A DNA stretch of 64,000 bases from Kribbella voronezhensis (GTDB taxonomy: Bacteria > Actinomycetota > Actinomycetes > Propionibacteriales > Kribbellaceae), in the NCBI RefSeq assembly GCF_004365175.1, contig NZ_SOCE01000002.1:434001-498000 (forward strand), read 5' to 3'. The translations under genes and the position numbers were made by a program. This document shows positions 49,425-52,455 of this stretch, piece after piece (within the stretch, counting starts at the first letter, position 1; every line of letters starts with the position of its first letter). The notes under the pieces are model-generated. The model worked only from the letters and a program-made list of their open reading frames with translations, had not been told where the DNA came from and did no database searches.

Positions 49425-49473
49425 CCCTCAGTCGGCTTGTGGTGGTGGCAATGCCGCATTCGCCAGATCTTAA

Positions 49474-49504
49474 GGGAACACCTGTTCGAGCCAGGGTGTA
49501 CTCT
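49474..49504 (+). promoter_or_regulatory. LexA (SOS) box and -10 of the AlkB-like gene
   Basis: GGGAACACCTGTTCGA at 49474-49489 contains the invariant GAAC-N4-GTTC of the actinobacterial SOS box. TACTCT (49499-49504) is a good -10, putting the box over the -35. The gene starts 7 bases after the -10, so the mRNA is nearly leaderless. Confidence 0.8.
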
Positions 49505-49511
49505 GTTGGGC

Positions 49512-50156
49512 ATGGCTGGAGGGCTTCAGGCTTCGTTGCTGGATGCGTTCGAGGATCCTGCGCTGGGATCTCTCGAAGGGCTGCAGCGGACAGAGTTGGG
49601 TCAGGGCGCCTGGATCGACGTGCTGCCAGGGTGGTTGACCGGTGCGGACCAGGTTTTCGATCGTCTGGCGGTCGAGGTGCCGTGGCGTGAGGAGCGGCGG
49701 CAGATGTACGACCGGATGGTCGACGTCCCTCGGCTGCTCTGCTTCTACGGCGAGACCGACAACCTCCCGTTGCCGATCCTCGACGAGGCGCGCGACGCGC
49801 TCACCGATCGGTACGCCGAGGAGCTGAGGGAGCCGTTCCGCACGGCAGGTCTCTGCTACTACCGCGACGGACGGGACAGCGTCGCCTGGCACGGCGACAA
49901 GATCGGTCGCGGCGCCCGCGAGGACACCATGGTCGCCATCCTCTCGGTCGGCGAACCACGAGTCCTGGCGCTCCGCCCGCGCCCCGGCAGCACGTCGGCA
50001 AAGGTCGCCTCGACCATCCGCTACCCCCTCGGCCACGGCGACCTCATCGTCATGGGCGGCTCCTGCCAACGCACCTGGGAACACGCCATCCCCAAGTCCA
50101 CCACCCACACCGGCCCCAGAATCAGCATCCAATACCGCCCCCGCGGCGTCCGCTGA
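49512..50156 (+). CDS. AlkB-like 2-oxoglutarate/Fe(II)-dependent dioxygenase
   Basis: 214 residues from ATG 49512, just after a predicted SOS promoter. Double-stranded beta-helix dioxygenase: iron ligands His and Asp in SVAWHGDKIGR and His in TWEHAIPKS, 2-oxoglutarate Arg in RISIQYRPR. Family members reverse alkyl lesions on DNA or RNA. A LexA box upstream supports a DNA repair role. The gene end lies in a 24-25-bp tandem repeat that copies its stop codon. Confidence 0.9.
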   Translation: MAGGLQASLLDAFEDPALGSLEGLQRTELGQGAWIDVLPGWLTGADQVFDRLAVEVPWREERRQMYDRMVDVPRLLCFYGETDNLPLPILDEARDALTDRYAEELREPFRTAGLCYYRDGRDSVAWHGDKIGRGAREDTMVAILSVGEPRVLALRPRPGSTSAKVASTIRYPLGHGDLIVMGGSCQRTWEHAIPKSTTHTGPRISIQYRPRGVR

Positions 50157-50183
50157 TCCACCGCCCCCCGGCGTCCGCTGATC
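50134..50183 (+). repeat. 24/25-bp tandem repeat across the AlkB-like stop codon
   Basis: ACCGCCCCCGCGGCGTCCGCTGATC (50134-50158) is repeated at 50160-50183 with one base lost. Both copies contain the TGA. Confidence 0.85.
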
Positions 50184-50763
50184 TCGCGAGCAGACTCAGA
50201 CTCCACCCGAGCCGCCCCAGCCGAGCCAATCGAGCTGCCTGCGCCTCCCGAGTCGCCCGAGCGCCGGGCCGCCGAGTCGTCCGAGCCGGGCCGACGGAGC
50301 CACCGCTCGCCTTCCGAGTCGCCCGAGCCGATGGAGCCCGCGCCACCCGAACGTCCGAGCTAACCGACCCGCCCAAACACCCGAGCCAAGCGAACCGCCA
50401 GCCCCGCTTGAGGCACCCGAACCGCCGACGCCGCTCGCGCAGGCCGGTTGCCCGCGCCGCCCGAGCGTCCCGCGCCTGCCGAGTTCGGCTACCTGAGTCG
50501 GCGAGTCGCCCGAGTCCTCGGAGCCCACCTGAGTCGATGGAGTCCGGCCGACCGCGGGGTTTGCGTGGTGCCCGACATGCCCAGCCGCGACGGGGTGACT
50601 GGTGGGTCGCGTCGCCGGAGCCGGGAACGATGCGGCGGCGCAGGTCGCCTCGGCTCGGCCCTCGGATGTGGCGGACGGTGGTGCCGACCAACTGCATGGC
50701 AGAGGCGACTGGACCGTGGCTGGCACAGACTGGGGGCGTCGGCGCGGTAGAGGTGGAGGATGC
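50184..50763. repeat. Low-complexity CCGAG-rich spacer, no gene
   Basis: About 50200-50545 consists of degenerate CCGAGC / CGAGTCGCC units (gtcgcccgagcgcc, gccgagtcgtccgagcc). All frames give repetitive Arg/Gly/Ala or Pro/Glu text and no start with a ribosome-binding site, so I call no gene. From about 50590 the sequence is normal and leads into GGAGG before the amidohydrolase. Confidence 0.75.
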
Positions 50764-52455
50764 ATGCGGCAACTGGTGATCCGGAATTGTTCCGTCCTGG
50801 TCGTCCCGGAGACGGGGGAGTGCCGTGTCGATGAAGCGCAGGACATCTACGTCCAGGACGGCGCTATCGCCGCGATCACCGATACCGGTACGCCGGTCGC
50901 TGGTCGCCCTCCATTCGCGCGCTCAGCCGACGCTCGATCGGTCAGTGCCAGCCAGACCGACGATCACCAGTCCGATGCCGCACCGGGTGCTGCGGGATCG
51001 GTGGATGCGCGTTCGGGTGGTGCGGGATCGGCGGATGCAGGACCGGGTGGTGCGGGATCGGTGGGTGCGGGTTCCGCTGATGCCCGATGGGTGGATGCCA
51101 GTTCGGGTGGTGCGGGATCGGCGGATGCAGGACCGGGTGGTGCGGGATCGGTGGGTGCGGGTTCCGCTGATGCCCGATGGGTGGATGCCAGTTCGGGTGG
51201 TGCGGGATCGGTGGATGCGCGTTCGGGGAGTGCCGGGTCGGTCGAGGTGCTCGATGGGAGTGGGCTGCTTGCTGTGCCGGGGCTGACGAACTCGCATACG
51301 CACAGTCCGATGGTGATGATGCGGGGCGCGGCTGAGGACGTGTCGATCGACGACTGGTTCAACCGCAAGATCTGGCCGATGGAAGTGAACCTCACCCCGG
51401 AGCGCGTCCGAGTCGGCGCCCGTCTCGCCTGTGCGGAGATGCTGCTCGCCGGCGTCACCACCTTCGTCGACCACTACTTCCACGCCGACCAGATCGCCGA
51501 AGCAGCCCTCGAATCCGGCATCCGCGCCGACCTCGCTCCGACCTTCTTCTCATCCACCGGCACCGAAGGTCGAGAAGCCGCCTTCGCAGCGGTCCGCGAG
51601 ATCCGCGCACGAGGCGAAGCAGCCGCAAACGGCCACCCGCCACGCGTCACCGCCTCCCTCGGCCCGCACGCGCCCTATACCGTCACCGACGAAGACCTCC
51701 GCCGTACTGCGGAAGTCGCGCGCGCCGAAGGATTGCGGATCCACCTGCACGCGGCCGAGACCGAGGACCAGACGCAATCGTCGATCGACCGCCACGGCGT
51801 GACCCCGATCGAGGTGCTCGCGCGTACCGGCGTACTGGAAGCTGGTGCCCTGATCGCCCACGGGTGTGGCATCCGCGAAGCTGACCTCGCCTTGCTGGCA
51901 CCCTTCGCCGACCGTACTGCGGTCGCCTGCTGCCCCAAGGTCTACCTCAAACTCGCAATGGGCTCAACCACGCCGATCAAGTCGCTGCAGTCGGCCGGCA
52001 TCCCCGTCGGCATCGGCACCGACGGGGCCGCGGTCCACAACACCTTGGACCTCTGGGAATCCCTGCGCCTCGTCGCTCTCACCCAGAAACAACGCGAACA
52101 GAACGCCGAGTGGATGACCGTCTCGGACACCCTCCGCCTCGCCACCCGAGGCGGCGCGACCGCAGCCGGGCTGCACTACCTCACCGGCGCCCTGGAACCA
52201 GGCCGCCGGGCCGACATCGCCCTCGTCGACCTCTCGGCCCCGCACCACCAGCCGATCCACGATGCCCGGGCGAGCCTCGTCTACTCCACCCGAGCATCCG
52301 ACGTGGTCCATGTCGTTGTCGACGGCAACATAGTCGTCCGCGACCGTACCCTCACCACTGTCGACCTGGCGGAGATCCTCGAGGATGCCCGCACCCTGGC
52401 GCACACCCTCGTGGACCTGTCCGCAAACAGCACGATCCAGACCTACGCGCCCTGA
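50764..52455 (+). CDS. Amidohydrolase (cytosine/adenosine-deaminase-like) with inserted repeat loop
   Basis: 563 residues from ATG 50764 (GGAGG upstream). Metal-dependent deaminase of the SsnA/MtaD group: HTH metal pair in TNSHTHSP, HLHAAE, HGCG and Asp in GIGTDGAAVHN. Family members are about 440-470 residues. The extra length is an insertion at about residues 55-160 in the N-terminal beta-sandwich, just before the strand VLDGSGLLAVPGLTN; residues 80-159 are eight 10-residue repeats. The fold either side is intact. Substrate could be an S-adenosylhomocysteine-like or purine compound. Confidence 0.88.
   Translation: MRQLVIRNCSVLVVPETGECRVDEAQDIYVQDGAIAAITDTGTPVAGRPPFARSADARSVSASQTDDHQSDAAPGAAGSVDARSGGAGSADAGPGGAGSVGAGSADARWVDASSGGAGSADAGPGGAGSVGAGSADARWVDASSGGAGSVDARSGSAGSVEVLDGSGLLAVPGLTNSHTHSPMVMMRGAAEDVSIDDWFNRKIWPMEVNLTPERVRVGARLACAEMLLAGVTTFVDHYFHADQIAEAALESGIRADLAPTFFSSTGTEGREAAFAAVREIRARGEAAANGHPPRVTASLGPHAPYTVTDEDLRRTAEVARAEGLRIHLHAAETEDQTQSSIDRHGVTPIEVLARTGVLEAGALIAHGCGIREADLALLAPFADRTAVACCPKVYLKLAMGSTTPIKSLQSAGIPVGIGTDGAAVHNTLDLWESLRLVALTQKQREQNAEWMTVSDTLRLATRGGATAAGLHYLTGALEPGRRADIALVDLSAPHHQPIHDARASLVYSTRASDVVHVVVDGNIVVRDRTLTTVDLAEILEDARTLAHTLVDLSANSTIQTYAP
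51001..51240 (+). repeat. In-frame 30-bp minisatellite, eight units
   Basis: Eight contiguous 30-bp units encoding VDARSGGAGS-like decapeptides. Units 2-4 (51031-51120) and 5-7 (51121-51210) are an exact 90-bp duplication; units 1 and 8 are diverged caps. Phase is kept, so unit gain or loss would not break the gene. Confidence 0.97.

Follow-up and report, generated by a model that had tools for sequence, protein, structure and literature searches.

Our analysis of a 64,000-nucleotide stretch of Kribbella voronezhensis DNA (the window) identified a predicted LexA operator upstream of alkB, at the position of the promoter's -35 element, and alkB is in all probability driven by a LexA-repressed, leaderless SOS promoter. 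We infer both LexA binding and damage induction in K. voronezhensis from the sequence. SOS control of alkB had been proposed in a preliminary description of this DNA, and it is strongly supported by the conservation of the site and by the presence of boxes at recA and lexA. In the model that we favor, a LexA dimer would occupy GAACACCTGTTC in the undamaged cell, covering the -35 and keeping RNA polymerase off the promoter. Damage that yields single-stranded DNA would lead to the assembly of RecA filaments and to LexA self-cleavage, leaving the operator free. RNA polymerase would then use the TACTCT -10, with transcription beginning at or beside the ATG, and the AlkB produced would clear lesions of the 1-methyladenine and 3-methylcytosine type, its presumed substrates, by oxidative demethylation.

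The alkB promoter and its product

The features of the locus are as follows.

49476–49487, no strand: predicted LexA operator (SOS box) GAACACCTGTTC, the same 12-mer as before lexA
49499–49504, forward strand: -10 element TACTCT, of the form TANNNT
49505–49512, forward strand: probable transcription start, at or adjoining the ATG (putative leaderless mRNA)
49512–50156, forward strand: alkB, encoding a 214-residue 2-oxoglutarate/Fe(II) dioxygenase with PF13532, invariant active-site residues and a fold nearest to ALKBH3

The box consists of GAAC (49476–49479), ACCT (49480–49483) and GTTC (49484–49487), followed by GA. With its flanks, GAACACCTGTTCGA fits the actinobacterial LexA consensus tCGAAC-N4-GNNCGa (PMC9380542) with a single mismatch, at the C preceding GAAC. 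The 14-base form CGAACN4GTTCG is likewise matched at all but one base, with G for C at 49475, so the box was placed correctly and was fairly called near-perfect in the preliminary description. The left flank is GG rather than TC, which we count against the LexA reading. Two further points of that description can be confirmed: the -10 lies 7 bases ahead of the ATG, as read directly from the window, and with a spacer of 17–18 bases the -35 position coincides with the left half of the operator. A -10 only 6–8 bases from the start codon, the spacing found throughout the promoters compared below, implies a leaderless transcript, and the alkB mRNA is probably of this kind, with its start at or beside the ATG.

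The assignment of the product as an AlkB-like dioxygenase holds up well. The protein matches PF13532 with 57.1 bits (curated cut-off 31.2; E = 3.8e-15) and is the only PF13532 protein found in a genome-wide search; no NCBIfam model matched it at 0.001. Among 23 aligned orthologues H127, D129, H191, R203 and R209 are invariant, and we take these, from an alignment to ALKBH3 and from general knowledge of the family, to be the HxD...H metal triad and the two C-terminal arginines. Of proteins with solved structures, human ALKBH3 (9.7e-19) and then ALKBH2 (2.8e-9) match best by sequence, with about 20–27% identity over the aligned part. The predicted model (pLDDT 83) ranks them in the same order by fold (2.6e-15 and 4.2e-13); E. 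coli AlkB, a member of the same superfamily, scores as more distant (1.4e-7). Crosslink repair, which had been offered as one possible role, finds no support here and we reject it, since both family and fold indicate direct demethylases, the closest solved relatives being ALKBH3 and ALKBH2.

Some local features of the gene and its surroundings may be recorded here. One genus orthologue (L057, genome G023) has 424 residues rather than 214, as about 200 residues of low complexity, rich in Gly, Ala and Val, are inserted between its LRPR and GHGDLIVMGG segments, and a shorter insertion occupies the same place in a 237-residue orthologue (L056, genome G002). In the window, positions 50160–50600 after alkB are GAGCCGCCCGAG-like low-complexity DNA, and in the next frame (50602–52455), which encodes an amidohydrolase, GSADARWVDASSGGAGS-type repeats stand in tandem close to the N-terminus (50900–51300).

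Conservation of the operator and competing explanations

An alkB orthologue is present in 37 of the 38 genomes of the family, all under one genus code, and absent from G011. Absence of the motif from orthologous promoters had been named in the preliminary description as grounds for abandoning its reading; we found the motif present. All 37 genus promoters, the window's own included, contain GAACN4GTTC exactly, and the same promoters gave no match to versions with spacings of N3, N5 or N6. One of four control words had a single exact match, and controls came within one mismatch in up to 9 of the 37. An alignment of the genus promoters, anchored at the box, shows no variation in the eight palindrome bases or in the GA that follows, and G occupies the two positions immediately ahead of GAAC in 95% and 97%. 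Within the -10, the first T, the A and the last T are each kept at 84%, while no base from 5 to 45 upstream of the box carries more than 0.45 bit. The start codon itself reads ATA in one orthologue (L053), where the others show ATG.

Conservation extends through the class. Of 394 class genomes, 225 gave AlkB matches in a protein search, and 68 promoters were picked by hand over 16 family codes from the better-scoring matches listed, a sample that represents strong rather than weak homologues. Scanned from 150 bases before to 25 bases after the aligned start, 37 of these 68 promoters contain the exact box and 63 contain it with at most one mismatch, compared with averages of 0.1 and 3.4 for shuffled promoters (at most 9 within one mismatch) and with 0–1 and 1–6 for control words and spacings. 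The 63 include L113, although the site counted there is unlikely to be the operator (a GTAC-N4-GTAC palindrome overlaps the -10 of this promoter); in L125 an exact box lies just beyond the scanned stretch, and a 170-base window raises the exact count to 38 of 68. Four promoters (L076, L078, L092 and L093) have only boxes with two mismatches. In two of them, L076 of family f39 (GTAC-N4-GTAC) and L078 of f49 (GCAC-N4-GTGC), both halves are altered together, so that the palindrome is retained, and such paired changes might point to a LexA of altered specificity. Right halves altered in a common way mark some lineages: 4 of 5 f21 promoters have TTTC, 9 of the 10 from f19 and f20 together have GTTT, and all 4 of f6g11 have GTGC. 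Our guess is that these variants may tune the strength of the operator or the time at which AlkB is released.

What does vary is the position of the operator within the promoter. The -10 was called as any TANNNT 3–14 bases before the start codon, and it lies 6–8 bases from that codon in 36 of 37 genus and 65 of 68 class promoters, figures biased by the script's preference for a gap of 7. The box stands 9–11 bases ahead of the -10 in 36 of the 37 genus promoters, and at this spacing, over the -35, in 48 of the 68 class promoters (including L089, for which inspection by eye moved the site to GAACAGATTTTC at -34). In 14 of the 68 it stands 2–3 bases ahead of the -10, and in 3, from the f35 genomes L103, L105 and L106 (the last placed by eye), it overlies the start codon; these counts leave out L062, L113 and L125. 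In L105 and L106 the alkB ATG falls inside the palindrome. On an AlkB tree of 74 rows, with L113 and L125 unlabelled, the box-position labels need 8 changes; resolution of the tree is poor, with 29 of its 71 inner branches open, and its well-supported branches force only 3 changes, counted on the main class. An operator that is kept while its position varies suits repression by bound LexA better than it suits a fixed promoter element. This retention at differing promoter positions between lineages is possibly new.

Could the conserved element instead be part of the promoter proper? The genus reads GGGGAAC, which we liken to the GGAAC-type -35 presumed for ECF-sigma promoters, and about 95% of the promoters in the genus have GG ahead of GAAC. 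An ECF-sigma -35 would leave unexplained that GTTCGA, on the right, varies no more in the genus than the left half does; beyond the genus the left flank of the box is mostly TC or TA; and a box 2–3 bases before the -10 (14 of 68) or on the start codon (3 of 68) cannot be a -35. We regard this explanation as very improbable; the GG flank may nonetheless serve as part of the -35. Equally improbable in our judgment is that an Ada-type adaptive response governs alkB as in E. coli, the box being incidental. The genome does encode two Ada-type proteins, but both genes are on another contig than alkB, the LexA box is absent from both of the Ada gene stretches examined, and the box at alkB is conserved across the class. 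The 87-base intergenic stretch (49425–49511) also has no word resembling four variants of what we take to be the Ada box, although actinobacterial Ada may bind otherwise. The least probable candidate, to which we give next to no weight, is that the RecA-independent activator PafBC drives the promoter. The alkB -10 is a TANNNT, like that of PafBC promoters, whose motif we presume to be TTGTCRGTG-N8-TAN3T; yet the nine-base element is matched at only 5 of 9 positions in the window and at no more than 6 of 9 in the 37 genus and 68 class promoters.

LexA boxes elsewhere in the Kribbella genome

How much weight should a single palindrome bear? In the window there are two exact matches to the 12-mer pattern, against 0.77 expected, and 12 of 100 shuffles reach that number. 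Over the 8.03 Mb assembly (four contigs) GAACN4GTTC occurs 116 times and the reversed pattern 71 times, from which the probability of finding it within 60 bases ahead of a given start is about 0.0009. The presence of one such palindrome would by itself be weak evidence, and it is conservation in orthologous promoters that raises the alkB box above chance. The longer form CGAACN4GTTCG has 34 occurrences against 2 for its reversed control. Among the 29 of these 34 sites that were inspected, 12 precede genes; the other 17 either fall within a candidate frame or could not be assigned. Those preceding genes include the sites at lexA, recA, dnaE2, an imuA'-like frame, a Y-family polymerase and ruvC, along with a radical-SAM gene and a DinB_2-family gene. 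The imuA' frame has no Pfam match and is named from its position ahead of an ImuB-like Y-family frame, distinct from the Y-family polymerase just listed. Where the longest frame is taken mechanically, it encloses the box at imuA', recA, dnaE2 and the radical-SAM gene, but in each case the likely start is downstream of the box. The remaining four of the 12 sites (L005, L006, L131 and L135) stand 20–112 or 123 bases ahead of genes with no obvious part in repair, encoding a DUF4262 protein, a DM13 protein, a 194-residue protein without a family and an AMP-binding enzyme. Together with the 17 sites in frames or unassignable, these four indicate that a perfect box need not function.

The preliminary description had suggested looking for the motif in the same form before recA and lexA, and in this genome it precedes both. 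The 12-mer at alkB is identical to one facing lexA, and its reverse complement faces dnaE2 and imuA'; recA, ruvC and a Y-family polymerase have exact palindromes upstream whose central bases differ from those at alkB.

One RecA was found in the genome. The LexA DNA-binding domain has three matches, two of them in proteins that also carry an S24 peptidase domain, and these two LexA-like proteins, encoded in the 564206 region of contig C2 (L048) and on contig C3 (L058/L047), share 50% identity across 232 aligned columns. Several LexA-type boxes lie ahead of the gene for the first, and no such box was found within the 3.2 kb surrounding the second. Since a second LexA-like protein is encoded, either could be the repressor at alkB, a point that we count against the proposed model.

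LexA and alkB in other bacteria

The class-wide comparison also bears on a published operator. A table in PMC9380542 lists GGTTACGCTGGATC at -20 as the alkB box of Streptomyces venezuelae and marks it as validated; the section of that paper on binding in vitro names lexA, recA, dnaE2 and uvrA only. We found the bare 14-mer in 5 of 392 genomes of a sampled genus, f21g26, which is probably Streptomyces. Three of the five carry it before an alkB orthologue, where it ends 1 base from the ATG and holds the -10, and its first base is at -15, five bases from the published position. In two of these (L172 and L175) a GAACN4TTTC site begins 19–20 bases further upstream, and in the third (L174) the corresponding upstream site is GCTCATGCGTTC, with two mismatches. 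Among named genomes, the 14-mer lies six bases before an ATG at 30 loci, and tblastn detected an AlkB homologue at none of them. Judged from the relatives with the 14-mer before alkB, the printed S. venezuelae sequence looks like the -10 region; we offer this as a lead rather than a finding, because relatives were compared in place of S. venezuelae and the position is five bases off. Taking the comparisons together, we consider it an even chance that LexA control of alkB is both old and class-wide, that selection keeps the operator while its position moves and its right half changes by lineage in ways that may tune AlkB release, and that the printed S. venezuelae box is the -10 region, with the true operator about 20 bases upstream.

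In E. coli, alkB is under Ada and not under LexA (PMC1839093), and the contrast that the preliminary description drew with the Ada regulon is correct. The different wiring is not in itself new, however, as LexA or SOS control of alkB has been published for S. venezuelae (PMC9380542) and Mycobacterium tuberculosis (PMC8151990). The S. venezuelae gene (vnz_32390) belongs to the core LexA targets: it has a ChIP-seq peak, mitomycin C induces it 11.02-fold, and it shares the LexA regulon with recA, lexA, dnaE2, dinP, ruvC and a radical-SAM gene (PMC9380542). The box printed for it is a poor palindrome, whereas that of Kribbella is exact. M. tuberculosis alkB, Rv1000c, is counted among the SOS-box genes and shows RecA-dependent induction by mitomycin C; AlkB is still induced by mitomycin C under double depletion of recA and pafBC (PMC8151990), and a further input may therefore exist in that species. 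Moxifloxacin raises Rv1000c 8-fold (PMC7911356). In f6g11, which we take to be Mycobacterium, the box has the GTGC right half and lies 2 bases ahead of the -10, unlike the Kribbella box over the -35.

With the link between LexA and alkB already shown in two genera, what the present analysis adds is breadth, the anatomy of the promoter and a published operator that could be corrected; among the open-licence papers that our literature searches listed, no title announces a class-wide survey of the alkB LexA operator. In this actinobacterial class, the direct reversal of alkylation damage would be coupled to the general SOS alarm and not to a dedicated alkylation sensor. Such coupling would be sensible if the lesions repaired by AlkB matter most where stalled replication leaves single-stranded DNA.
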